Assembly (NCBI RefSeq): GCF_040954645.1
Contig: NC_092807.1
Location: forward strand, 78,329,021-78,393,020
Direction of reading: 5' to 3'
DNA length: 64,000 bases
Origin: Diabrotica undecimpunctata
Taxonomy: Eukaryota > Arthropoda > Insecta > Coleoptera > Chrysomelidae
Made by a program: the position numbers and the translations under genes. Position 1 is the stretch's first letter. Every line of letters starts with the position of its first letter. This document shows, in pieces, positions 2,789 to 63,990 of the stretch. The notes beneath the pieces are model-generated. The model was not told the DNA's origin and did no database searches. It was given only the letters and a program-made list of their open reading frames with translations.

Positions 2789-3223
2789 TGTTACGATAAA
2801 TTCTGACCCAAAACCGTAAACATATTTATTACTAATATTCTCATTCATTTACGTATTTTCTAGGTAATACCTACCTGACACACGATGGGTCCCCTCCGCT
2901 ATAAAAACAACAATCGAACTTTCTGGAGACGAGCCGATGTAAAAATACCAGTTTTGAGACCATTCGCCGCTCTGTCTAGTCGAGAAGGCCATCGACTTTT
3001 CTAGTCTAACGGTATTGGGTATATAACAGGACTTTTTTGGAGGAAACGGCAGTCAAAAAAGAAGCTCGCGACGCGTTTCAAATGTAACGTCCGTATAGAT
3101 AAATTATGTTGTAATTATTAGTCAAACAAATTGTTGTACAGTGGTTTAATAAATTGATATAAATTATCGTGTTTTAGTAAATTAAAATAAGAACAATAAA
3201 TTAGAATTAATAAAAACGTAACA
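2789..3223 (+). repeat. 5' LTR of the Ty3/gypsy element (435 bp)
   Basis: It starts TGTTACG and ends CGTAACA. It contains a TATA-like TATATAA at about 3020-3026 and AATAAA-type polyadenylation signals near its 3' end. It has a stretch of about 54 bp after GTAACGTCCGT that is absent from the 3' LTR, plus scattered substitutions, so the pair has diverged since insertion. Confidence 0.9.
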
Positions 3224-3249: not shown

Positions 3250-4690
3250 ATGACGACGATTTATGAGCTCACAGTGACGAATTTAAGAAGACATCTCGAG
3301 GACATAGAATTAGCTTCTACCGGAAAAAAGGCTGAGTTGTCCAACGACTAAAGAACGCTTTGGAGGAAGATGGGTTTAATCCAGAAACGTATATATTTAA
3401 AGATAAACATGATGCTGTCATCTCGTCGATTTCGAAATTAGAGAACAAAGTTTCTGACGATATTTGAAAGTTTCTTCTGATGTAGCCAAAGTTTCTGGTG
3501 ACATAGCATCATTAGAGAACAAAGTTTCTGGCGATATTTCGAAAGTTTCTTCTGATGTGGCCAAAGTTTCTGGTGACATCGCATCATTAGAGAAGAAAGT
3601 CTCCGGCGATATCGCTTCTTTAGAAGACAAAGTTTCTAACGAGATTTCTTCTCTAGAAAGCAAAGTTTCTGCTAACATCTCTTCGGAAATCTCTTAAGTC
3701 ACTTCTGAGATGTCTGCCCTCGACGATAGAATATCTTCGTTAAAAGACCAAGTTGCTGCCGATATGTTGGCCTTCGAAGAAAAGATATGGAAATAGATGG
3801 AAAGGAAGATGGAGAAAACAGGGACAGCAGAGAGAGGAAACAATCCGATTACAGTAGAGACAAAAGAAGACGAGACGAAATGTAAGTTGGAAATACGGCC
3901 GAAATTTGAAGGAAGTGGAGGTTCTGTTCATGTTAAAGTCCCAACTTTCGACGGAAAATCATCATGGAACAACTAAATGAAATAGTTCGAATCAGCTGCA
4001 AGAGCGAATGGATGGTCTGAAAAAGACAAGGCTGTAAACCTGACTATTGCTCTTCGAGGAGATGCCTTAGATGTGCTTCAGACTATAGCCGTAGAGGAGA
4101 CGGATGATTTCGAACAACTTAAGAAGAGGTTAAATATGCGATATGGCCACGAACACTTGGAGCATGTATATCAGTCACAGCTTAAAAATCGAAGACAAAA
4201 GAAAGATGAGGCTCTTCAAGAATATGAGGTAGATATTGCCAGATTAGTACGATATGCTTATCCAACAGCTCCCGAAGACATGATGGAAAAGTTGGCCGTT
4301 CAAACGTTTATTGATGGTCTTCGTGATCATGAAATGCAGAGAACACTACGATTAGCTCGTCACAAGACGCTGGTTGATGTCTTATTCGCCGTCCTCGAAT
4401 ACGAGTCAGCTACGCAGGCCTCTGGCGGGTACAGTAAAGTTAGGAGTGTAAAAGAGGAAGGAGATGAAGATAAACTTGACTAGCTCGTTAATATGATGAA
4501 AAGTATGACATACAAGAAAACGAAGACCATAAGATGCTGGAACTGTGGCGAAATAGGACACGTACGAAGTTCATATAAGCACCCTAGGTACGACGCAAAT
4601 CAAGAAACTCACCATCAGGAAAACCAGAACAGGTCGGCGTTAGGGGGGCAGCTTCGACCCGGAACTTTTCCAAAGACCCTCTCATACTAA
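3250..4690 (+). pseudogene. Ty3/gypsy gag with SAP-like N-terminus, heptad repeats, capsid and damaged zinc knuckle
   Basis: From the ATG at 3250 it begins MTTIYELTVTNLRRHLEDIE, resembling a SAP DNA-binding motif. A run of repeats (KVSGDIASLE-type units, about 3420-3700) predicts a long coiled coil. The capsid region follows (about 3940-4440: FESAARANGWSEKDKA, LTIALRGDALDVL, QTFIDGLRDHEMQRTL). The zinc knuckle at about 4533-4577 reads CWNCGEIGHVRSSY: the last Cys of CX2CX4HX4C is Tyr. There is a frameshift near 3345, another near 3467, and several stops (about 3695, 3795, 3975 and a TAG at 4481-4483). The protein would form the virus-like particle and bind the element RNA. Confidence 0.85.
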
Positions 4691-4698
4691 TAGCTTCT

Positions 4699-5229
4699 TT
4701 GAAATGTCGTGAAGATAGTGTACATGTAGATGGAGAAATAAATGGTAAAAAGCATACGTTATTGGTGGATACCGGAGCGACCAGAACCATTATACGCCCG
4801 ACAGTTATAAACAGCCGTAAGAAACTGTTACCAACGAGGTTGCGACTTCGGACCGCTACAGGTGAAAATACCAACATTCATGGAGAAATCCAGATACAAT
4901 TAGGAATTGGAGCAGAAAAGTTCGTCCATACTGTTATAGTTGCTGACATCGAAGAGGATGTTATATTAGGAATGGACGTAATGAATCCGCATGGATTCCA
5001 ATTGGATTTTAAGAATAAGGTAATCAAAGTTGGTAACGGGGAGGTATTACTTCATCCACATGATGACAACACTATGCAAGCAGCCATTAAAGAAGATACA
5101 GTCGTGCCTGCGACAAGTAAAACAATCATAGTAGCGCGGATACAGGGAATTGTGGACGAAGGGATACCCGTTATGATGGAGACTTGGCCGAGGAATCATA
5201 ATTGGAAAGGAATTGGTGACTGCGGCTAA
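4699..5229 (+). pseudogene. Ty3/gypsy aspartic protease
   Basis: A retropepsin-like domain with the active-site triplet in LLVDTGATRTIIRP, followed by LRTATGENTNIHGE and ILGMDVMNPHGF, the flap and C-terminal ILG motif of LTR-element proteases. It would mature the Gag and Pol polyproteins. The frame breaks near 5210 (WPRNHNWKGIGDCG then stop); the RT frame starts in another phase at 5213, overlapping it, so one small indel separates the two. Confidence 0.85.
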
Positions 5230-6982
5230 AGAAATTCCTGTGAGACTTATCAATGTTAATGACTACCCAGTAACCATCAAGAAAGAGACAAAAGTAGGAA
5301 CTTGTGTATCTGTGACATCCATAATCCGTCAGACGACAAAATCTGATAATTTCAACGACAAATTCGACCAAATGGTTGCAGTTGCTGGACAGTCTCTGAA
5401 TCAGATTGAGAAAAGGAAATTAAGGGAATTTCTTCGGCAGTATCGTGATATTTTTGTACCGAAAGGAGGAAAGACGGGAAGAACTAACATTGTTAAGCAT
5501 AAAATTGATACTGGTAATGCTAAGCCAATTCGTCAAACAGCTCGACGATTATCACAGGCGAAAAGAGAGGAAGCTGAAACGATTGTTCAGGAAATGAAGA
5601 AAGACGGGGTGATAGAACCTTCTACGAGCCCATGGGTTTCTCCGGTGGTTCTGGTTAAGAAGAAAGATGGAACGACGAGGTTCTGTGTGGATTACCGTTT
5701 GCTGAACAACGTTACCAAGAAAGATAGTTATCCTTTGCCTCGGATCGATGACACATTGGACACATTGGCTGGAAGTAAATTGTTTTCTACTTTGGATTTG
5801 AAGTCTGGATACTGGCAGGTAGAAATGGATCCAGTAGATAAAGAAAAGACAGCCTTCACCACAGGATCTGGATTCTGGAAATTCAACGTTATGCCATTTG
5901 GACTCTGTAATGCTCCTGCGACATTTGAGAGGCTTATGGAAAATGTGTTGAGAGGGTTATCTTGGAAAACATGCCTGGTTTATTTAGATGACATAATCGT
6001 CTTGGGGGAGACATTTGAAGACCATCTGAAGAATTTAGAAAACGTTTTTATTCGACTTAAAGCTGCCCAATTGATGTTAAACCCCAAGAAGTGCCAGCTA
6101 TTTCAAGGTAATCTCAATTATCTGGGTCATATAGTCAATAAAGAAGGAGTGGCCGTGGATAAGGGAAAAATCGATTCCATTAAGGAATGGCCAGAACCAA
6201 CTGACAAACATCAAGTGAGAAGTTTTCTTGGACTATGTACTTATTACCGGACGTTTATTAAGAAGTTTGCAGATATCGCTAAACCATTAACGCGACTTAA
6301 AGAGGAAGCAAGGGAATACCGCTGGGATACAGACTGCCAAAATGCCTTTTAGACCTTAAACAAGAATTTAATAACAGCACCAATTTTAGGGTATTCACTG
6401 CCAGAAGGAGAGTTCATGTTAAATACAGATGCAAGTAATGTGGGAATTGGAGGAATGCTGTCTCAGATTCAAGGAGAACAGGAACGAGTTCTTGGATATT
6501 TTAGTAAAGTTCTTTAGAAACCTAAGCCGAACTATTGCGTCACGAGAAGAGAACTTCTAGCAGTAGTGAAATCAGTAGAGCACTTCTACCAATACCTCTA
6601 TGGAAGAAAGTTTTTAATCCGAACCGACCATGCTGCCCTTAAGTGGTTGATGCAGTTTAACAATCCAGAGGGTCAGATAGCCAGGTGGATCGAACGACTC
6701 CAAGAATACGATTTCAAGTTTGAGCACCGGGTCGGAGTTAGTCACAGAAACGCTGATTCTCTTTCCACGAGGCCATGCCCAGCAGAGTGTTCCCACTGCA
6801 ACAAAACGGAAGCCAAGGAAGCAGCAGTGCTAAGAATGACGATGGTCAACGACGACTGGACGCCTACTAAGATAAGGGAAGAACAAGAGAGAGATCAGAG
6901 TTATACAGAAAATCCGAAAATGGAAAGAGGAAAACCGTCGACCACCTTGGCAAGAAATATCGAACCTATGTTCAGTAGTTAA
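5213..6982 (+). pseudogene. Ty3/gypsy reverse transcriptase and RNase H
   Basis: The RT motifs come in order: RFCVDYRLLNNVTKKDSYPL, LFSTLDLKSGYWQVEM, FNVMPFGLCNAPATFERLM and the active site LVYLDDIIVLG (intact YLDD), then the thumb with LGHIVNKEGV and VRSFLGLCTYYRTFI. A TAG at 6350-6352 and another at about 6517 break the frame. RNase H follows in the same phase, with NTDASNVGIGG, RRELLAVV, IRTDHAALKWL and HRNADSLSTRPC giving the four acidic residues. The frame ends at a TAA at 6980-6982 before the integrase. Polymerase chemistry residues look intact; the stops are what inactivate it. Confidence 0.9.
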
Positions 6983-8200
6983 GACGTATTGGGCCCAGTG
7001 GGACTAATTTATCATCGAAGATGGCTTGCTCAAACGAGTCCTGGAAAATGATGACGGTTCAGAGAAGAGAAAACAGTTGGTGATCCCAAAGAGCAGAATA
7101 GCCGAAGTGCTTCGTCAGTTACACGACAGTCCATCAGGAGGGCATTTTGGTGTAAAGAAGACCCTTCAGCGAATTCGGGAACGGTTTTATTGGATGAAAA
7201 GTTCCGACGATGTAAAAGACTGTCGTAAGAAATGTACTATTTGTTCTACGAGTAACGGGCCTTATAGAAAAATGAGAGCCCCTATGAGACAATATAATGT
7301 TGGAAGCCCGTTTGAAAGAATAGCTTTAGACATTGCTGGGCCATTTCCAGAAAGTGAAAATGGAGGCAAGTACATGTTGGTAGTAATGGATTACTTTACT
7401 AAGTGGGTCGAGATTTACGCACTTCCAGACCAGAAGGCCGCCACCGTTGCAGATAAGTTGATCCAAGAATATATCAGCCGATTTGGAGTGCCTTTGAAAA
7501 TCCATAGTGACCAAGGCAGGAACTTCAAAAGCGATCTATTCCAAGGAATATGTGATAGACTAGGCATGAAGAAAACAAGAACTACCGCGTATCATCCGCA
7601 ATTGGATGGTATGGTAACACGAATGAATAGGACAGTAGGCAAGTATTTGACAAAGATGGTATCCGATCATCAGCGAGACTGGGACCAATATCTTCCGTTC
7701 TTCACAATAGCCTACAGATCTCTGTTAACGAATCAACAGGCCAGACACCAGCCAAAGTTCTATTCGGACGCGAAATGCGACTACCTTGTGATCTAGAGTT
7801 TGGGTGTCGACCTGGAGAAGATGTAGCAGGTGAAGATTATGTGATCGAATTACGAAGAAGAATGGACGATGTACATGAGTTGGTCCGTTCCCACCTTCAG
7901 ATCGCTAGCGACCGAATGAAGAATCGCTACGATACACAAGCCGAAAAGGGTTGCTTTAAGAAGAACGACAAGGCCTGGCTCTATAATTCCAAGAAGCGAA
8001 AAGGTTATTCTCCCAAATTGCAGCAGTTTTGGGAAGGTCCATACCTCATTATGGAGAAGATCAACGATGTCATCTACCGAATAAGTAAGATTCCGAGGGG
8101 AAAGCCGATGATAGTACACCATAACCGGCTGGCGTCTTTCGAAGGTGACCACGACGTAGATGAAGAAGTGGAAGTAAACCAAGTCCAAGATGTGTCCGAT
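6983..8200 (+). pseudogene. Ty3/gypsy integrase, catalytic Glu replaced by Thr
   Basis: The N-terminal zinc domain is visible as HDSPSGGHFGVKKT...CRKKCTIC (HHCC). The core has DIAGPFPESENGG (first Asp) and KIHSDQGRNFKSDLF (second Asp). At the third position, where the family has a Glu in the HPQ-DG--E-N motif, this copy reads HPQLDGMVTRMNRT: Thr. A frameshift near 7785 moves to the frame that opens at 7775. The C-terminal domain (WLYNSKKRKGYSPKLQQFW, GPYLIMEKINDVIY, VHHNRLASF) follows. Without the Glu, strand transfer is not expected. Confidence 0.9.
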
Positions 8201-8836
8201 CTCACGTTTGAGGAATTCATGGGTGCCTATGGAGGTACCGGTAAAGCAAGATATGGTGTTACCACTGAAGAAAAGCAAGATCTACTCGCGCTTCCCGATG
8301 ATTACTCGCTGGCCCTTACTATCCCGGCCAGTATCAAAGACGCACCAGGGTTGGCATCCGTATTTCGAAGGAAGTTCGGTCGAGTTGCAGAACTTTAATG
8401 CCAAGTGCCAGCTCCTGGGAAAGCCTTGAAAATCCAAGAAGCATCACGTTACCTTTTCTACCTGGTAACAAAAGACACTGCCCGTGACCAACCTACGTAC
8501 CGAGATGTATGGGGAGCCTTACTGCAATTGAGAGAGCACGTACTAGAGTCCGACGTGCAAAAGTTAGCTATGCCAAAGTTGGAGTGCCGCCAATTAGATT
8601 GGAGGGTTATCCAAAATATGGTGGAGGAAATCTTTAAAGACACCGAAGTCCAGGTGTTAGTCTGTTGCAATCCGCATAGTTACTGGTGCGGAGAGAAAAC
8701 CGTCCTTTGTCAGTTTTATACAACTGGAAGTTGTAAAAGAGGGTCCAGTTGCCGATACCAGCATACCGTTCCAGTTCCAGTCCCGAAAATGTTCCAGGAG
8801 GAACCATCTTTTAAGAGGGGGGCAATGTTACGATAA
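8201..8836 (+). pseudogene. Macrodomain-like domain (TARG1/ALC1 type) plus CCCH zinc finger fused behind the integrase
   Basis: The frame from 7775 continues without a phase change to 8836, broken by one TAA at 8396-8398. After an acidic linker, segments line up in order with the TARG1 (OARD1)/ALC1 macrodomain: EKQDLLALPDDYSLAL (first strand with the adenine-contact Asp), KDAPGLASVFRRKFGRV (glycine loop and helix), RYLFYLVTK (strand ending in the position of catalytic Lys84), QPTYRDV, LAMPKLEC and VQVLVCC. The loop that should carry the catalytic Asp125 (GCGLD) reads LECRQLDW, so it is damaged here. About 30 residues later comes CQFYTTGSCKRGSSCRYQH, a CX7CX5CX3H finger of the RNA-binding CCCH class. 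The frame stops inside the 3' LTR. The assignment is an alignment by eye; the enzyme role is inferred. Confidence 0.75.
8810..8825 (+). promoter_or_regulatory. Polypurine tract
   Basis: The purine run TTTAAGAGGGGGGCAA lies directly before the 3' LTR start (TGTTACG). In LTR elements this tract primes plus-strand DNA synthesis. Here it also encodes the last residues of the pol frame. Confidence 0.7.
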
Positions 8837-9206
8837 ATTCTGACCCAAAACCTTAAACATATTTATGACTAATATTCTCATTCATTCACGTATTTTCTAG
8901 GTATTACCTACCTGACACACGATGGGTCCCCCTCCGCTATAAAAATAACAATCGAACTCACTGGAGACAAGCCGATGTAAAAATACCAGTTTTGAGACCA
9001 TTCGCCGCTCTGTCTAGTCGAGAAGGCCATCGACTTTTCTAGTCTAACGGTATTGGGTATATAACAGGACCTTTTTGGAGGAAACGGGCAGTCAAAAAAG
9101 AAGCTCGCGACGCGTTTCAAATGTAACGTCCGTAAATTGATATAAATTATCGTGTTTTAGTAAATTAAAATAAGAACAATAAATTAGAATTAATAAAAAC
9201 ATAACA
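8826..9206 (+). repeat. 3' LTR of the Ty3/gypsy element (381 bp)
   Basis: Same ends as the 5' LTR (TGTTACG...ATAACA). It lacks about 54 bp present in the 5' copy between GTAACGTCCGT and AAATTGATATAAATT and differs by scattered substitutions. It is followed by ATAT, the target duplication. Confidence 0.9.
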
Positions 9207-14632: not shown

Positions 14633-15715
14633 ATGAATAAAAAAAGCAAGCTTCTTTATTCAGAAGAGGTAATGGATAATGCTATACAAGCCGTAAGAAA
14701 CGGAATGTCGCCGTTTAAAGCACATAAAATTTAATGTTCCACGAACAACATTATTGGACAAGTTACATGGTAGATCACCTCAAGGAAGAAAAATTGGAGC
14801 TGAAACTATTTTAACAGGCGAAGAAGAAAATATATTAGTGAAATGGATGATGACCATAGCCGAACAAGGGTTTCCCGCAACCAAACTCCAGTTGATTGAT
14901 AGCGTACAAATTTTAATCAAAAACCTGAAAAGAGAAAATCCTTTCAAAGATGGAAGACCAGGAAGACATTGGTTTGAGGGTTTTATGAGACGCCATCCTG
15001 AATTAACCAGAAGGATTTCTCAAAAATTAACAAATGCTCGTGCTAACGTCACAGAAGAAAAAATAAGAAAATGGTTTATGGGGATCAACAGCTACCTTTT
15101 GAAAAATAATTTCTTACATGTCACGAATGGACCACAACGGGTCTTTAATTGCGATGAATCAGCATTCTTCCTTAGCCCTAAAAACGACAAAGTTTTGATA
15201 AAAAAGGGTGAAAGAACCGTATATTCATTTATCAATAATGATGAGAAAGAATGCTTAACGACACTTCTCACCTGTAATGCAGCAGGCCAATTCGCCCCTC
15301 CAATGATTGTTTACAGTTATCAAAGAGTGCCAAGAAACATAGTTGAAAAAGTTCCTGCAGGTTGGGGTATAGGAAGATCTGACAATGGTTGGATGACAGG
15401 GGAAACATTTTTTGAGTACATAGCAAATGTTTTTCACCCCTGGCTTATGCAAGAAGAAGTGCCATTACCAGTTATTTTATTTTTTGACGGCCATTCTTCA
15501 CATCTCACATTAGCTGTACGTGAATTCGCTTCCAAGAATGGAATCATTTTAATTTGCCTTTTAGCAAATTCGACGCATATCTTACAGCCTTTAGATGTTT
15601 CTGTATTTCGCCCCATGAAAGCTGAATGGAAAAAAGTAATTTATCAGTGGCTGATAGAACATCAGGGAGACAGATCAAGCCGAGAACATTTTGCTTCTTT
15701 GTTGGAAATAAAAAA
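14633..15715 (+). pseudogene. pogo-like transposase, N-terminal HTH and DDE/D core (interrupted)
   Basis: From the ATG at 14633 (MNKKSKLLYSEEVMDNAI) a pipsqueak-like HTH begins; a frameshift near 14730 leads to NVPRTTLLDKLHGRSP. A CENP-B-type HTH follows (GRPGRHWFEGFMRRHPEL). The catalytic core shows FNCDESAFFLS (first D), ILFFDGHSSHLTL (second D) and STHILQPLDVSVF (third D), with 35 residues between the last two: a DD35D core as in pogo/Tigger/Jerky proteins. The frame stops being transposase after FASLLEIK at 15715, where the nested TIR element begins. It would cut and paste the element at TA sites. Confidence 0.88.
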
Positions 15716-16170
15716 CGGGTGTGGCAGTCCGGTGGGACTGCCGGTAAAAGTTACACTTCTATACACGCATTCGCCGTTACAAATTTATTTGGGAGTCAAT
15801 CTGCACAATCATTACATATGTAATGCTATAGGTAAGACATAGCAGAAAGAGAAATATAATTAATAACAACTTACAAAAATTAATAAACAACATTTGACCT
15901 CTAATAGGAGTATAGTAAATGAAGGATTGAATCAATATTTTGATGAAAATGTATATTTTTATTTTTATATATGTATGAAAGGACTTGAATGCAAAAATTC
16001 TTTTACACATACTCTCCAGTAAAATTCATTGTTTATTTTGTTATTAATATAAAAATATAATACAATACACTGCAATATTTATAAGTATTTAAAAATGACA
16101 ATAATATACATAACTTTTCTATTTACGCATGTGTTTAATTTACCATGTAATAATATTAATAAAAAAGTCC

Positions 16171-36939: not shown

Positions 36940-39031
36940 CTAATAATATTCTCACCAACTTTTCACATAAACCTCCTTATGCCAGCTCGGATATACATGA
37001 TGTCTATAAGAAAACGTACACATTTATTAAAGAACACCCTGACCTGATGGTATTAACCAGCGACAAAGGCAATACAACAGTACTGATGATGAGAGAGCAG
37101 TACTTAAACCTAAGCCAAAAACTTCTAGATGATAATAAATATTATCAGCCACGTCTTCACAATCCCACCTCAATTTACACAAATAAAATAAATAAATGCA
37201 TCACTGAACTAAAAAATAAAAAAATCATCGATGATAAACTAGCCAAATCTCTCCATAACTATAATGGCAATGCCCCCAGGTTCTATTGTCTTTCTAAAAT
37301 CCATAAGCCCCAACTGAGTATGCGTCCTATATTATCGTCAATAAACGCTCCTAACACTAATTTAGCCCAATTCTTAACGGACATTCTTTCACAAACATAC
37401 AATTATAAGAACGATTTCAACATAGTAGACTCTTTCCAGTTCAGGGAATTTATCAATAATTATCAGTTACCAAGAGAATATGTCTTAGTAAGTAAAAAAT
37501 CATCGATGATAAACTAGCCTAATCTCTCCATAACTATAATGGCAATGCCCCCAGGTTCTATTGTCTTTCTAAAATCCATAAGCCCCAACTGAGTATGCGT
37601 CCTATATTATCGTCAATAAACGCTCCTAACACTAATTTAGCCCAATTCTTAACGGACATTCTTTCACAAACATACAATTATAAGAACGATTTCAACATAG
37701 TAGACTCTTTCCAGTTCAGGGAATTTATCAATAATTATCAGTTACCAAGAGAATATGTCTTAGTAAGCTTCGACGTAGTATCCCTGTTTTCTAATCTCGC
37801 ACTCTCTAGCGTCGTTACGTCACTCTGGAACCATTGGAATGAAATCCAACCACACAGTCCAGTATCGTGGCAAACATTCTCTAAATTAATAAAACTGACG
37901 TTTGACACCAATTATCTAATATTTAATGACAAATACTATCGTCAAATTTTTGGAACTCCCATGGGATCGTCTATGTCCCCCATTCTAGTTAATTTCGTAC
38001 TCGACGACCTTATTAATTAGAGTATCAGTAAGTTAGATTTCTAGGTTCCCTTTGTAAAGCGTTATGTTGACGACTTGATCCTAGCAACACCTCCTGATAA
38101 GATTTTAAGTACCTTATCAGTCTGCAATAGCGTTGATCCTCACCTTCAATTTACATGTGAATTCGAGGTTGATAACAGCATACCGTTTTTGGATATGCGA
38201 ATCATACGCACACATAGTAACACATTGGGCACTACGTGGTACAAGAAAGAAATGGCGAGCAACCGGTTCTTAAATTACCACTCTACACACCCAATGAGAT
38301 ACAAACATAATCTTGTACAAGCTCTTAGCTTTAGAGTACACACGTTGACCCATACGCGGTACAAGAGGGAATCTTTGGATTTACTCAAATCCATTCTCAC
38401 TGATAACTCTTACCTCATATCCATCATTAACAGATATCTTTCCTCTAAAAGCTATCGTCATTCTATTTCGGAAGCACCTAACGGTGCAATACTAGCCTTC
38501 ATATCCAATAGCATACAGATGAACAATTCCCCGTTAATCTCAAAACCAGCCACAAAATATGCTTCTCTTCCCTATTTCTCACAAATTACTAACAAGCTCA
38601 CTAAACTAATCAAAAACTTACCCGTCAAAATATCCCTAAAAAATACTAAAACCATTGGAAAGTTATTCTCCAAGTCTAAAACTCCACTAAGCTCGTTAGA
38701 GCACACTAATGTTGTCTATCAGATACCCTGTTCAGAATGCAACTCCTGCTACATTGGCCAGACCAGTCGGTCGTTTCTAGGGCGTATAACTTCACACAAA
38801 AGCGACAATAGATTTTCCAAACCCTCTTGTGCCCTTGCACAACACGCCATTTCCACCAAACATCACATTGACTTCACAAATACCAAAATACTAGCGAAAC
38901 AAAATAATCATCAGAAACGCTCCTTTATTGAAATGTGTGAGATCCTCAAGAACCCATCTGCAATAAACAAAAGAACCCACATCGACAATTTGAGCCAGGT
39001 TTACCACTCTCTCATCTTTCGAAATAAATAA
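36940..39031 (+). pseudogene. Penelope-like element 1 RT and GIY-YIG endonuclease
   Basis: RT pieces: FIKEHPDLMVLTSDKGNTTV, APRFYCLSKIHKPQLSMRPI, YVLVSFDVVSLFSNLALSSV, FGTPMGSSMSPILVNFVLDD and VKRYVDDLILATPP (active-site YVDD), then FLDMRIIRTHSNTLGTTWY. The endonuclease reads NVVYQIPCSECNSCYIGQTS, LGRITSHKSD and CALAQHAISTKHHIDF, a GIY-YIG domain with the Cys/His insert of Penelope. Two stops occur near 38019 and 38040, and the internal duplication shifts frame. The last ORF, 38075-39031, is open. Confidence 0.9.
37218..37767 (+). repeat. 275-bp tandem duplication inside the Penelope RT
   Basis: Unit 1 (about 37218-37492) and unit 2 (37493-37767) are almost identical; I see one substitution (AGCCAAATCT versus AGCCTAATCT) and a one-base difference in the A run. 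The offset is 275 bp, not a multiple of three, so it breaks the reading frame. Confidence 0.95.
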
Positions 39032-45191: not shown

Positions 45192-46795
45192 ATGGGTTTT
45201 TATGATGACATCAGACTCCATTACGGACCATTACTTGTGTCGTATCTAAAGGAATGGGCTAATGTGAACACCAAACTGGCAGCGTTAAGGAACAGAACGA
45301 CTTTTTTAATTAAGTGTCGAAATGCAAACTGTTTTCCGAACCATATCACACACTTAGAATTTTCTGTAGAAGTTAAAAAGTTGTTGGCTTTAGGCCCTAA
45401 ATTCGCTTTGCTTCCTAACAAAAAAGATTTTAAAGTTTCCTCTTTGTTGGCAGACATCGAAAACATTTTAAGACCAATTGAGAATGTCGATAAGGACATT
45501 CTAAGGTCCAAATGCACTAATATAATAACTAACTTCCTCAACAAAGATGAAAAAGACCATTTCTTAAATAAATATTATATCAAATGCAAAACTTTTTTGA
45601 AACATCACCCTGAGATTAAGATTGTCCAGAGTGACAAAGGCAATGTCACTGTAGCAATGTACACTAGGGACTATATACAAAAATGTGAAGACTTACTCAC
45701 TGACACTAAATATTATAAAAAGTTAAACAACAATCCCGTGTGTACTTTGCAACAAAAGGCTAATAAACTAGTTTCTGATTTAGTAAAGGAGAATCAAATA
45801 GATCAATCAGTTGGTAAAACTTTGAAAATTTACAATGCAATTGCTCCTAGATTTTATGCTTTCCCAAAAATTCATAAACCTACTCTGTCCATGAGACCAA
45901 TAGTGTCCTCAATAGGTACACCTAATGGCCCCATAGCAAGTTTTTTAACTAATATTCTCACAGAAACGTACAGTAATAACAATGAGTTTTACATTCAGGA
46001 TTCTTTCAGTTTCAGTTCTTATATTAATAACTTAAAATTACCTATCGACTAGCTCGTTAGTTTTGATGTAGTGTCTTTGTTCACTAACTTACCATTACAC
46101 ATAATCTTGGTTAGTGTTGAGAAACACTGGGATGACATATGAATGCACACAACCCTTAACTTAGCTAATATCAAAAAACTCATTTCTTTTGTTTTTGACT
46201 CTAATGTTTTTATTTTTAATGATTGTTACTACAAACAAGTCTTTGATATCCCAATGGGTTCCACTATTTCACCAATACTGTGCAATTATCTCTTGGACGA
46301 CTTGATTAAAGACTGTTTGCAACAAATTAATTTTGAAATACCGTTCACAAAGAGATACGTAGATGACTTAATCTTGGTAGTACCTGCAGACTCTATACAA
46401 TCTACGTTAATGTTTTCAACCAAACGAAACCCACACTTGCAATTCACGTGCGAGGAGGAGCAGGAGGGATCTTTGCCTTTCCTTGACATGAGATTGCATA
46501 GATGTGAGAATAATGTTGTGAAAACACAATGGTATAGAAAACCCATATGTAGCAATAGATTCATAAGCTACCATTCTTGCCATCCTCCTAGGATGAAAAC
46601 TAATTTAGTCCTAGCGATGAAAGAACGTGTCAAAAGGTTATCACATCCGGATTATCTCCAACATGATCTCAACCTCTTACGTAATATTTTTGTTGAAAAT
46701 TCATATCCTCTAAGACTAATTAATAAATTAATTTTTAATGTTCCTTTTGTTAATAGAAATAACATTTTTACTATGTCATAATCAGTGCCCTCAGC
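45192..46795 (+). pseudogene. Penelope-like element 2 reverse transcriptase
   Basis: It opens near 45192 (MGFYDDIRLHYGPLLVSYL) and runs through KIVQSDKGNVTVAMYTRDY, APRFYAFPKIHKPTLSMRPI and SSYINNLKLPID to a TAG at 46050. It resumes at once with LVSFDVVSLFTNLPLHII, then FDIPMGSTISPILCNYLLDD, FTKRYVDDLILVVPAD (active-site YVDD intact) and LPFLDMRLHRCENNV. A further stop lies near 46140. It ends at 46781 in this frame and the endonuclease follows in another. Confidence 0.9.
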
Positions 46796-59269: not shown

Positions 59270-61703
59270 TCCCCCCGTTGATGTGACCTACATCTAAATG
59301 AGTATGGGGTAAAGGACATACTTTAACAAACGATCTTATAAATGTTCCGTCTTTGGTTCTTAGTTTTACAGTTCTAACCCTGCCGTCTTTACCTGGCAGT
59401 GTTTCGATTACTCTTGCCAGTGGCCATTTTAGAGGAGGAGCGTTATCATCGATTAGGAGTACAAGATCATCGACTTTATTGTTTTCTTGGGGCAGAAACC
59501 ATTTGGGCTTATTTTGGAGGCGATTTAAATAATCCCTAGACCAACATTTCTAGAAATGCTGCTGAATTTTGCTGCATTTCTGCCACAGTGATAAACTATT
59601 TTCGGATTTTGTCGATTTTTTCGGATAGGAAGTCATGCTGCTTCCAATGAGAAAATGAGCGGGGGTTAGAAAAGAAAAATCATTTGGACTGTCTGACAAT
59701 GGACAGAGGGGTCGTGAATTTAAAACAGCTTCTATTTGAGCCAAAATAGCGGTTAATTCCTCAAATGTAAAAATATTATTGCCCATCATCCTTACTAAAT
59801 GATACTTGCAGCTCTTTATAGCTGCTTCCCAAATTCCACCCTGATGTGGAGATCGAGGTGCAATGAACTTCCACTCAATTAATGTTGAGGCTGCGAATTC
59901 TTTTATGGTAGGTAGAACATCCGTTCCCATAAAAAAGTCATAAAGCTCTTTTAACTGATTACGAGCTCCAAGAAAGTTGGACGCATTGTCCGAATAAATG
60001 GTTTTAGGAATACCTCTGCGTGAAATGAATCTTTTTAACGTTAGTAGAAATGCTTCGGTGCTAAGACTGGACACTAGCTCTATATGGACTGCCTCAGTGA
60101 CGAGGCATACGAATACTGCTATATAAGCCTTACAAATAGGAGCACGTCGCAGTTTTGAAGATTTTATTTGAAATGGGCCCCCGTAGTCGATGCCGACATT
60201 TGTGAATGGTCGAGAGACCTGAAACCGTTCTTTGGGTAGATCGGCCATTATTTGATGAGCTGGTCTTGCGTTAAATCTGTAACAGTTCTTACATTTGTAG
60301 ATGATACTCTTGATTTCTCTCAGTCCATCAAGAGGCCAATAAGTGAGTCTAATATTTGACAATGTATTTTGAGGGCCTGTGTGCAATAGGCGAATGTTTT
60401 CTCTTTCAAGTAACGATCTAACTACCTGGCATTTTGTAGGAAGAAGAAGTGGAAATTTTTGATTATACGAAACATTTTCATTGCGAAGTCGTCCACCAAC
60501 TCTTATTAAATCAGATGCGTCTATAAATGGATTTAATTTTAAGATAGCCTTATTTTTTATTGCTTTTTGATGCTTTAAGTCTTTAAATTCTGATTGAAAG
60601 AATGTTAGTTGAATGATTTTAACTATTCTCTGCTCGGCTTCTATTAATTTGGAAGCCGAAAGTACACCATTTCTTTTGTTTTCTTTATTTTTAAGATTGT
60701 AAATATACCTATTGCAACATGCAATTACTCTTTGTAACCGAGTGAAAGATGAGAATTTACAAAAAGTTGTATATAGAGTAGGTTTCGAATTATTTACAGC
60801 GTGTAAAGTGGCTTTTATTTCAGGGATATCTGTTATATCAATATTTGGAACAAATTCATTAAATTTAGTGGTTGCGTTCATTAGAAAATGGGGCCCATGC
60901 CACCATAATGTATTGTCTACCAGCAGGTCCGGTGTGGTACCGCGAGACAGAATATCTGCTGGGTTATCTTTAGAACTTACGTGATTACATAAATAAGTTC
61001 GCGTTAACTCCTGTATTTGAGTTATACGGTTTGCTACGAAGATTGACCAACGAGAAGGGTGAGAATTTATCCATGCAAGTACAATTTGGGAGTCTGTCCA
61101 GAGCCTAACCGAAGCTATGGAAGAAACTTTTGGTGAAATAATAAGAAAGATATTTGAAATCAGGGTAGAAAGCAAAACAGCCCCTAACAATTCAAGTCTG
61201 GGTAGGGAAATGGTTTTTAGCGGAGCTACACGACTCTTTGAAGTAATTAAGTTGCATGAAACGATTCCATTTTCATGTAAAACCCGTAAATAAATACAAG
61301 CGCCATATGCCTTGATACTTGCATCACAGAAACCATGGATTTCAATTCGAGAAATATTGAGCGGATTGAGCAGAGGTCTTGAGATTGTAAGTTTTGCGAG
61401 ATCGGGAATGTGACCTATAAAATTCAACCATTCTGATGAAATTTCTCCTGTGAGTTTGTCATCCCAATTTAAGTTACATATCCAAATTTTTTGCATTAAC
61501 AACTTGGCAGATACAGTAATCGGATTTATTAGACCAAGAGGATCAAAAATAGAAGAGATAATTGATAGAACTTCTCTTTTTGTGTATTTTGGTTCACTAG
61601 AAATGCCAGGAAGAGAGATAGAGAACATGTCAGACTGAGAATTCCAACATATTCCAAGAACTTTATTTGACGAATTGTCGGGTTTTATTACATAATTAGA
61701 TTT
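59270..61703 (-). pseudogene. BEL/Pao RNase H and integrase
   Basis: The frame from about 61700 (KSNYVIKPDNSSNKVLGICW) runs through KREVLSIISSIFDPLGLINP, the RNase H region IHGFCDASIKAYGACIYLRV, RLELLGAVLLST and VRLWTDSQIVLAWI, and the integrase: zinc part KCKNCYRFNARPAHQ, core VGIDYGGPFQIKSSKL (Asp), TIYSDNASNFLGARNQ (Asp) and HQGGIWEAAIKSCK (Glu). All three catalytic residues are present. A TAG at 59550-59552 (after KIQQHF) breaks the frame; the C-terminal domain (CWSRDYLNRLQNKPKWF, RVIETLPGKDGRVRTVKL) continues in phase to 59270. Confidence 0.92.
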
Positions 61704-62496
61704 TTAAGATTCAAAGGAAATAGAGTCGAGAAACTCGGAAGAATTAGAACTCCATTTATGGAGTGATATCCCAGCGGAATTTAGACTCGTAGAAAGTTGC
61801 TTATAAGTCTTGTACAAAGTCTCGATATCATTTGCACCATGTAAAATATCATCTACATAACAAGAATTTTCTAGAGCATCAGCAGCTAATGGGTATTTTT
61901 CTTTATTTCGAACTGCCAACTCTTTAAGACACCTAGTACTTAAAAAACTAGCTGAGTTTGTTCCGTAGGTCACGGTCTGAAGTTTTAGACATTTTTTTTT
62001 CTTCTTGCGGGGAATTGCGCCACAGAATGTTTAGTAGAAATGTCTGTTTTGGGTTAATTCTTATTTGCCTAAACATCTTTTCGATGTCGGCGATAAGAGT
62101 ATATTTGTAAAGTCTAAAGCGAATTAGAATTTCAAACAAATCAGGTTGTACAGTATAACCTTTGAGCATAATATCGTTGAGAGACACATTTGAGGTTGAT
62201 TTCATTGATCCATCAAATACAACCCTGAGTCGAGTAGTTAAGCTATCATGCTTGAAAACACAATGATGTGGGAGAAAAAACTTATGTTCGGACGATTCAT
62301 TAAGCTTAGAAAGGGGAACGTATTTACAATGCCCTAAAGAAACATATTCTGATATGAATTCTGTGTACAGATGCCGTAACTCGTCTGATTTGTTAAGCCT
62401 TTTTTCAAGATTGAAAAAACGTCTTTTTGCCAAATGAAATGATTCACCTAATTTTTGATATTCATTAGGAGTCTTCAGAGGTAGGTCTACTTGAAA
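61704..62496 (-). pseudogene. BEL/Pao reverse transcriptase
   Basis: KYVPLSKLNESSEHKFFLPH, KHDSLTTRLRVVFDGSMKST, IRFRLYKYTLIADIEKMFRQ (first catalytic Asp), then a frameshift at an A run near 61985, and SCYVDDILHGANDIETL (active-site YVDD) with LHKWSSNSSEFL. A TGA after LTILPSG (about 62497) separates it from gag-protease and a TAA near 61704 from the next part. Confidence 0.9.
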
Positions 62497-63990
62497 TCAG
62501 CCACTAGGAAGAATTGTTAGTGAAGATTTGAATATGTCCTCAGCTCGCTGTTCTGAGGGAGTTAATGTTTTTGCATGAATAGAAGTGAGTGGTTTAGTCT
62601 CTTCTATTTTCCAAAAATTCTTTAAAAGAGAATCAAGATCAGCAGTTTGTACGTGTAACGAAATATTTGAATAATGTGAGTGAGCATTGTTCTTTGAAGG
62701 AGTCGCGTTTGATCCTAACATTGTATAACGAGAGTATGGGATATTTCCACCTACAATATAACCCAAATGAGTGTTTTGACGAATAGGAAGGTCGGGGCCT
62801 AATTTTATTAAGCCGTAAGTAACTAGGTCAAAATAAATATCAGCTCCTAAAAGCATGTCTACGTCCGACGGGGTACAGAAATGTGGGTCTGCAAGTTTTA
62901 TATTTTTTGGTATTTTTAATAAATTTAAATCCAGCGCGACTTGTGGATGCTGGCACGTAATGCTTTCGAGGACAGCACAGGACAGATTAAAGTTTTTACC
63001 AGGATATGTGTTTGAATAGATTTTAAGGTCTACCATCTTGTTTGAAACAGAAGAAGTTTGAGCTATAACTGATATTTGAAGATTTCTGGTATAGGGTGAA
63101 TAACACATTCTTTTGGCTAACCTGTCTGTTATGAACGAAACTTGGCTACCGGAGTCTGTTAAACAACGAACAGAGATGGGATTGTTTTCAACATCGTAAA
63201 CAGTTACCAAAGCAGTTGCGAGTAAAATTTGCAGATTGTTCGAATATACAGAGTGGGACGAAATATTGCTCGGCCCTGGAAGATTTTGCGTATCTGGTAA
63301 ACCTTGCGGAATTACATTTGGAACAGAGTTGTTCTGCGAATTTGCATGAATATTCTCCGAAGTGAATTGAGACGAATGATGATTTGGACGTTGATGACGT
63401 GAATTCCGAACAAATTGATTTTGGGCGGGTTGACTTTCAGAATTCGATCTATACGAACTTTGCCGTGAAATATTTTTCGACGGGTGCGAAATGTGAAGCA
63501 AAGAGTGATGTCTTTTATTGCAGATTTTCCAATTCGAAGATGAGGAACAAGAATTAGACATATGACCACTAGCAAGGCAATTGAGACAAAAACCTTTGTT
63601 TTTTACTTTTTGCATACGCTCTTGAGCGGACAAATTTAAAAATTGTTGGCAAGAGTATACTTTATGTGAGTTAGAATTGCATACGAAACATTTAAAAGAT
63701 GTATCTCTATTATTTATAGAAATATGAAGAGACGGTTTTGATTTATAAACTGTTTTCTCTTCAAAGATCAAATTTTCCAATATCTTACATTTCTTTTCAA
63801 TAAAATTCAAAAACTCATCTATTGTAGGAAGTTCGTTGAAATCTCTTTCGGATTCAAAGGATCGTTTCATATTAAAATCTAATTTTTGTGTGAATATATG
63901 AATTAAAATTAAATCTGCAAGATTGTCGGAGATATTTAAATTATTTAGCGCACTTAAATTCTTTTTTATGTGAGTTAAGAATTCTCGCAA
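62497..63990 (-). pseudogene. BEL/Pao Gag C-terminus, zinc knuckles and protease
   Basis: The frame is open to the window edge. MREFLTHIKKNLSALNNLNI and FDFNELP-like segments are the end of capsid. CFVCNSNSHKVYSC and CLNCLASGHMSNSC are zinc knuckles (CX2CX4HX4-5C). A Ser/Asn/Gln-rich spacer follows, then the aspartic protease with VRCLTDSGSQVSFITDRLAK (DSG active site) and MLLGADIYFDL. It ends in ...SLTILPSG before the TGA that cuts off the RT. Confidence 0.9.

Follow-up and report, generated by a model that had tools for sequence, protein, structure and literature searches.

A 64,000-nucleotide stretch of the genome of the beetle Diabrotica undecimpunctata, hereafter called the window, contains a Ty3/gypsy retrotransposon whose Pol reading frame continues behind the integrase into a TARG1-type macrodomain and a CCCH zinc finger. 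Comparison with further copies in the same assembly showed that this macrodomain-CCCH tail is the normal C-terminal end of Pol in a young, high-copy Ty3/gypsy family. The family of the window element is referred to as family A, and a second family of the same layout as family B. We consider it reasonably probable that a clade of Ty3/gypsy Pol proteins acquired a TARG1-type ADP-ribosyl hydrolase, and that in families A and B hydrolysis was lost and the fold selected as a binding or scaffold module.

Macrodomain-CCCH tails in the Diabrotica undecimpunctata genome

The 1.743-Gb assembly was searched with a 145-residue piece of the tail, and 150 of 5360 first-look candidates were scored. All 150 matches, 149 of them besides the window itself, were full length and stop-free over the piece; 109 lay in open frames of at least 1400 amino acids and 54 in frames of at least 1700. 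A second search was performed with human TARG1 (150 of 4798 candidates scored). One of its matches, L009, is a probable cellular gene. We take the remaining 149 as family B, as they are alike in score and in identity to TARG1 (38-41%). Inspection of the tails of L010-L028 revealed the family B macrodomain in 19 of 19, some tails being cut or altered, and 40 of the 149 family B matches were in frames of at least 1400 amino acids.

Sixteen copies selected for long frames, eight from each family, were fetched. The pieces looked for, which did not include RNase H, were protease, reverse transcriptase (RT), integrase H2C2 motif, integrase core, integrase C-terminus, macrodomain and CCCH finger, and they share one open frame in all 16. 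The sequence-only reading of the window had placed macrodomain and finger in frame behind a Ty3/gypsy integrase, and the genome bears this out as a trait of the family rather than of a single copy: in none of the 16 does the frame end at the integrase. A direct repeat resembling a long terminal repeat (LTR) was found in 13 of the 16 fetched stretches, with 99.3-100% identity and some repeats clipped by the end of the stretch; L030, L035 and L037 contained none. L032, L039 and L041 had an extra, different repeat in the flanks, and clear 4-base target duplications were seen for L029, L032 and L036. The long shared frames and near-identical LTRs indicate that both families are young and recently mobile.

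Identity of the macrodomain and the zinc finger

In the window copy the macrodomain is interrupted by a TAA codon (Table 1), and the two halves were searched separately. Positions 8399-8836 alone matched human TARG1 in the PDB (4j5q, E=8.8e-13, query 7-88 to residues 60-143), and positions 8201-8395 alone gave no Pfam family match. The tail of the stop-free family A copy L005, which includes the equivalent of 8201-8395, matched TARG1 (2eee) with E=6.6e-22 over 14-154 against residues 4-146. A family B copy matched with E=8.2e-30 and covered 2eee residues 11-148. Homology to TARG1 spans the whole domain in copies of both families, and the macrodomain of family A is a diverged TARG1-type domain, in frame behind the integrase as had been suggested. 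The profile search proposed with that suggestion was successful for the TARG1 match and the zf-CCCH family, but the general Pfam Macro model PF01661 was silent for family A. It was unlisted even up to E=10, so that a check by Pfam only would miss the macrodomain. In family B the model scored under its cut-off (E=0.012 and 0.035), and it was above the cut-off in three other relatives, P0030, P0033 and P0043. The only NCBIfam match was to the DarG model, with E=1.1e-7 but 31.5 bits against a cut-off of 250.

The TARG1 fold was assessed on P0001, an A-type relative from Diabrotica virgifera, as the window domain itself is split by the stop. Its predicted structure (modelled with 11 other rows) had a mean pLDDT of 78.7. 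The best PDB fold match was TARG1 entry 4j5q (E=7.4e-10, root mean square deviation 1.8), and all of the eight top matches were human TARG1 entries.

For the finger, the spacing CX7CX5CX3H is as originally read, and it is identical in families A and B, in P0006 and in Molorchus. The zf-CCCH model PF00642 matched positions 8399-8836 with E=1.7e-7 (31.4 bits, cut-off 20.5) and a stop-free family A copy with 29.2 bits. The top PDB match of the finger was CPSF30 (6fuw, E=1.9e-9). The finger beside the macrodomain probably binds RNA.

Catalytic residues

In published work on the TARG1 active site, K84 acts as nucleophile, D125 serves to resolve the lysyl intermediate that forms, and the distal ribose is lined by H32, C33, S35 and T83 (PMC6397177, PMC9967889); the catalytic pattern given in the former is TKx(30,35)Px[IL]GxGxD (PMC6397177). 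In our alignment, both K84 and D125 are kept in 24 of 29 macrodomain rows, the exceptions being three A-type and two family B rows. Family A (L005 and P0001) and P0006 keep K84, while two residues are missing from the GCGLD loop and the D125 position has no aspartate. As the short loop is common to family A, P0006 and P0001, its shortening is not recent. In L005 the positions of H32, C33 and S35 are occupied by L, T and P. The S35 position is A in many insect rows, cellular ones included, so a change at S35 alone says little. Both family B rows keep D125, with GxG changed to GxA and K84 to R.

The catalytic pattern was present in 18 of 47 proteins, that is, in 9 of 9 without element domains and in 9 of 38 counted as element-derived (P0007, P0008, P0009, P0028, P0030, P0032, P0041, P0043 and P0047). 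A relaxed pattern was found in 18 more, 17 from Molorchus and one from Harmonia. Neither pattern fits the other 11 of the 47, among which three keep K84 and D125 with the threonine changed and two are cut Molorchus domains. No A- or B-type protein shows the catalytic pattern: family A has TK and lacks GxGxD, and family B has TR and GxAxD. On these counts, the ancestral element macrodomain was probably an active hydrolase, and families A and B would have lost the pattern by different routes. The proposal that this particular element encodes a working deacylase or hydrolase against a defence is not supported in that form, given the loop two residues short, the missing D125 and the changed H32, C33 and S35 positions. 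Since relatives with an intact pattern exist, the hydrolase idea fits the clade better than the family of the window.

Selection on the macrodomain

Between the window copy and the fetched copy L029, 14 of the changes in 132 macrodomain codons are synonymous and 6 are nonsynonymous (Fisher p=1.1e-5), a ratio within the range of RT and integrase for the same pair. Across family A (15 rows, 11 distinct), the normalised nonsynonymous to synonymous ratio (N/S) was 0.20 for the macrodomain (p=9.5e-7) and 0.09 for the stretch behind it (p=0.0007). For the macrodomain of family B, where 21 of 27 rows could be used and 18 of these were distinct, a value of 0.41 was determined (p=3.2e-5). Judged from these codon comparisons, the macrodomain is under purifying selection in both families, with its catalytic pattern degenerate.

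Relatives in other insects and their phylogeny

The search for an integrase-macrodomain-CCCH pol, which had been proposed for this genome and other insects, was positive for both. Protein searches yielded the truncated relative P0001 (1 of 1 candidates), which UniRef names OARD1-like, and two long Pol relatives, P0006 and P0007 (2 of 672 candidates). Searching with the P0007 domain, 41 of 215 candidates were found to carry it, P0007 included. Among these matches were 19 entries from Molorchus minor, 16 of them with the finger behind the domain. Further hosts were Callosobruchus, Harmonia, Rhynchophorus, the sawfly Athalia and Planococcus, and insect proteins without listed element domains were matched as well. 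In the domain check of the relatives, no finger was found in P0007, P0008 and P0009. The last of these is a Pol with integrase and TARG1 domain that the database assigns to the powdery mildew fungus Erysiphe pulchra, an assignment that may be due to contamination or transfer. Two scans of viral contigs gave no relative. P0001, P0006 and both families share a similar linker stretch upstream of the macrodomain.

We sorted the proteins into cellular-type and element-derived ones ourselves, by their listed domains; P0029 has no listed domain. P0023 was placed with the element-derived proteins, as it has the Molorchus tail. In Planococcus citri, the TARG1 domains of P0046 (no RT or other element domain) and P0047 (with RT) are identical letter for letter, so P0046 may be element-derived. 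P0040, a DNA-ligase protein from a JGI metagenome that also contains a PARP-type zinc finger, has a TARG1 domain at residues 880-1024 with the full catalytic pattern. Cellular-type TARG1 proteins of 806-979 amino acids were found in other beetles (P0027, P0031, P0034, P0036 and P0038). In Diabrotica undecimpunctata itself, a cellular-type TARG1-domain gene with a frame of 760 amino acids lies on the minus strand at L009:1030-3309, and no Pfam match to it was obtained. Among six proteins compared, it was closest by E-value to those of Gonioctena (44%) and Phaedon (42%) over 327-329 columns, which, with the Diabrotica origin of P0001, points to a leaf beetle as the probable source of the window; Tribolium P0027 matches the gene in two stretches.

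According to Pfam coordinates, the macrodomain occupies two positions in Pol. It follows the integrase in P0028, P0032 and the window clade, and it lies between RNase H and integrase in P0030, P0033, P0037, P0041 and P0042. In P0043 it follows RNase H, and the integrase was not found. RT identity to the window RT was 75-91% for P0006-P0009 and P0032, 43-48% for the internal group and 42% for P0028. In the RT tree, the internal group forms one side of a starred branch (97/96), and the window clade may have P0028, whose branch is long, as its sister. The macrodomain tree places the C-terminal type on one side of a branch with 88/80 support (100/97 without P0028) and four internal types together (96/95), and P0041 groups with beetle cellular genes (94/97). 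A single clade of all element macrodomains was not rejected by the approximately unbiased test (p=0.074 with 18 rows; 0.43 with 16 rows, minus P0041 and P0043). Given the two Pol positions and the RT distances, two or more acquisitions of the macrodomain by elements would be the simpler reading, with transfer between elements as an alternative. Beetle cellular TARG1 proteins are near the element domains in the tree, and a host origin is plausible, although the joining branches are weak.

Possible roles of the macrodomain

In the scenario that we favour, the TARG1-type ADP-ribosyl hydrolase would have entered an ancestor of the element clade, with an animal as its most likely source. Where relatives retain K84 and D125, the domain probably strips host-placed ADP-ribose from the RNA or cDNA of the element or from its integration complex. 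Families A and B probably lost hydrolysis by different changes while selection kept the fold; in them the domain would most likely be a non-hydrolytic module for binding or scaffolding at the integrase end, next to the putative RNA-binding finger. ADP-ribosylation is an established defence against RNA viruses and phages, and the targets of TARG1 enzymes are uracil in RNA, thymine in DNA and acidic residues. An eraser role is chemically plausible because TARG1s remove uracil ADP-ribose, as described for human TARG1 and two Drosophila paralogues in the relevant part of PMC13036486, and because mammals silence L1 by ADP-ribosylation, where SIRT6 mono-ADP-ribosylates KAP1 according to the corresponding passages of PMC4695847.

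Several results weigh against this scenario. The choice of copies for N/S followed protein similarity or frame length, and such a choice biases the ratio downward. The comparison of family A with family B is less exposed to this bias (pN 0.37-0.38; pS ~0.8, saturated), and there the macrodomain changed ~2.5 times as fast as RT (dN 0.52 vs 0.21). In addition, the stretch behind the family B macrodomain, which holds the finger, had an N/S of 0.86 (p=0.65), indicating no purifying selection. Constraint may therefore be weaker than assumed or shifting. ADP-ribose binding by the family A domain is doubtful, because the glycines of the loop have been replaced, as have the residues at the H32, C33 and S35 positions.

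The same data were considered under other explanations. The domain of families A and B could bind ADP-ribose or ADP-ribosylated chromatin and guide the integrase to damaged or PARP-marked sites, much as chromodomains steer other Ty3/gypsy integrases. Its fusion directly behind the integrase C-terminal domain and its selection although the catalytic pattern is not intact would suit such a tether; the altered pocket positions in family A speak against it, and the RNase H-integrase position in other lineages argues against one targeting geometry; we regard the tether as unlikely. Slightly less likely again is that macrodomain and finger are a structural leftover without any ADP-ribose role, a folded spacer in a tail that has to fold and to stop at the polypurine tract. 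This would agree with the change of catalytic residues by two routes (no D125 in family A, K84R in family B), with the fast evolution of the macrodomain relative to RT and with the lack of detectable constraint on the finger-bearing stretch of family B. However, the macrodomain N/S values of 0.20 and 0.41 (both p<1e-4, from copies sampled with bias), the common finger spacing in families A and B, P0006 and Molorchus, and the spread of the clade over several beetle species speak against it. An artefact, in which one gypsy copy happens to be followed by a host gene for OARD1 or by some unrelated insertion, might be suspected from the UniRef name of P0001 and the stop between the macrodomain halves of the window copy. 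It is refuted by the 150 own-genome matches, of which 109 have a frame of 1400 amino acids or more, and by the single frame of all 16 fetched copies; relatives in other insects with the domain fused to pol also oppose it, and its probability is negligible.

A bolder version of the hydrolase scenario would be that the eraser was acquired more than once, at two Pol positions, as host ADP-ribosylation restricts elements, and that the family A domain may act as a covalent ADP-ribose trap or tether. Such a trap is conceivable because K84, the nucleophile, has remained while the resolving aspartate is absent; the changed ribose pocket of family A, however, argues against it, and we consider this version improbable. 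Returning to the favoured scenario of an acquired hydrolase, an ADP-ribose eraser in Pol that is degenerate in some families would allow ADP-ribosylation to be tested as a restriction of retrotransposition in animals.

The element in the window and neighbouring features

The features of the window copy are listed in Table 1. An LTR pair, a short target duplication (ATAT at both outer flanks) and a polypurine tract identify a Ty3/gypsy element, and Pfam matches give the usual order of Gag, protease, RT, RNase H and integrase. The LTRs were aligned over 379 bases with 10 mismatches, one 56-base gap and two 1-base gaps.

Table 1. Features of the Ty3/gypsy element in the window
Feature	Position	Strand	Basis
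5' LTR, TGTTACG...CGTAACA, ATAT before	2789..3223	+	direct repeat of 8826-9206
Gag piece	4073..4483	+	PF03732 Retrotrans_gag E=2e-6
Pol aspartic protease piece	4699..5229	+	PF13975 E=7.5e-13
Pol reverse transcriptase piece	5213..6352	+	PF00078 E=1.2e-37
Pol RNase H piece	6566..6982	+	PF17917 E=1.9e-12
Pol integrase H2C2 + core (rve) piece	7026..7796	+	PF17921 E=3.7e-19; PF00665 E=7.4e-15
Pol integrase C-terminal part (Integrase_p58_C) + linker	7775..8200	+	PF22938 E=9.2e-14
Linker with FxEFMxxY-like start	8201..8257	+	sequence comparison
TARG1-type macrodomain, broken by TAA 8396-8398 in window copy	8258..8656	+	PDB sequence matches, alignment
CCCH finger, CX7CX5CX3H, Cys-to-His span	8708..8764	+	PF00642 E=1.7e-7; PDB 6fuw
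Polypurine tract directly 5' of 3' LTR, within reading frame	8813..8822	+	sequence
3' LTR, ATAT after	8826..9206	+	direct repeat of 2789-3223

The window copy is decayed, with its coding region in several frames in addition to the stop in the macrodomain. The single TAA that the sequence-only reading had noted in the frame 7775-8836 was confirmed and is a feature of this decayed copy: 7775-8395 is open, and 8399-8836 continues in the same phase. The final stop codon (8834-8836) is inside the 3' LTR, the frame reaching 11 bases into the repeat, and the macrodomain-CCCH tail therefore occupies the space between integrase and polypurine tract. In the gag region, 3437-3767 contains repeats mostly 33 and 75 bases apart with an 11-residue-like pattern (SLENKVSGDIS). 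They appear coiled-coil-like by eye, and the Molorchus relative P0019 is annotated with PF01442. Elsewhere in the window, we take the open reading frames (ORFs) 38075-39031 and 45192-46781 to resemble Penelope-type elements, and the first of them has a GIY-YIG-like stretch at its end; the ORF 14754-15842 presumably encodes a pogo-like DDE transposase, and 59550-63990 presumably holds BEL/Pao-like pol and gag pieces.

Comparison with known systems

The closest known protein is TARG1/OARD1 (C6orf130), a terminal ADP-ribose glycohydrolase, which the element domains resemble in sequence (6.6e-22 for family A, 8.2e-30 for family B) and, for P0001, in predicted fold. K84 is shared with family A, and D125 with family B and other relatives. 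The element domain differs from TARG1 in its fusion to a Ty3/gypsy Pol, in the absence of D125 and the GxG loop in family A, and in K84R and GxA in family B. DarG of the DarTG system provided the next-best PDB folds of the P0001 model after TARG1 (5m3i, 5m31 and 5m3e); this bacterial antitoxin is not the closest relative of the element macrodomain. For the finger, the comparison is with CPSF30 (CPSF4), whose name several database entries of Molorchus copies carry. CPSF30 has several fingers and the element one, and the likeness is that of a short motif and does not imply descent.

Retroelements are known to take up cellular genes. Retroviruses have captured a dUTPase within pol or next to it, either between RNase H and integrase or at another place; there, too, a small cellular nucleotide-handling enzyme entered pol, and the enzyme and hosts differ. 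In the open-access PMC literature, no description of a TARG1 macrodomain in a Ty3/gypsy Pol was found (Repbase was outside the search). For ray-finned fish, macro-domain ORFs have been reported in Epsilon-like endogenous retroviruses (Basta et al. 2009, cited in a passage of PMC4977317), likewise retroelements with a macro domain protein. As that passage presents them, the fish domains are additional ORFs, whereas in the insect Ty3/gypsy elements the domain is inside the Pol frame, at two positions and in some cases with a CCCH finger. Retroelement macro domains having thus been reported already in fish, we rate the TARG1 domain fused into a Ty3/gypsy Pol as a new variation.
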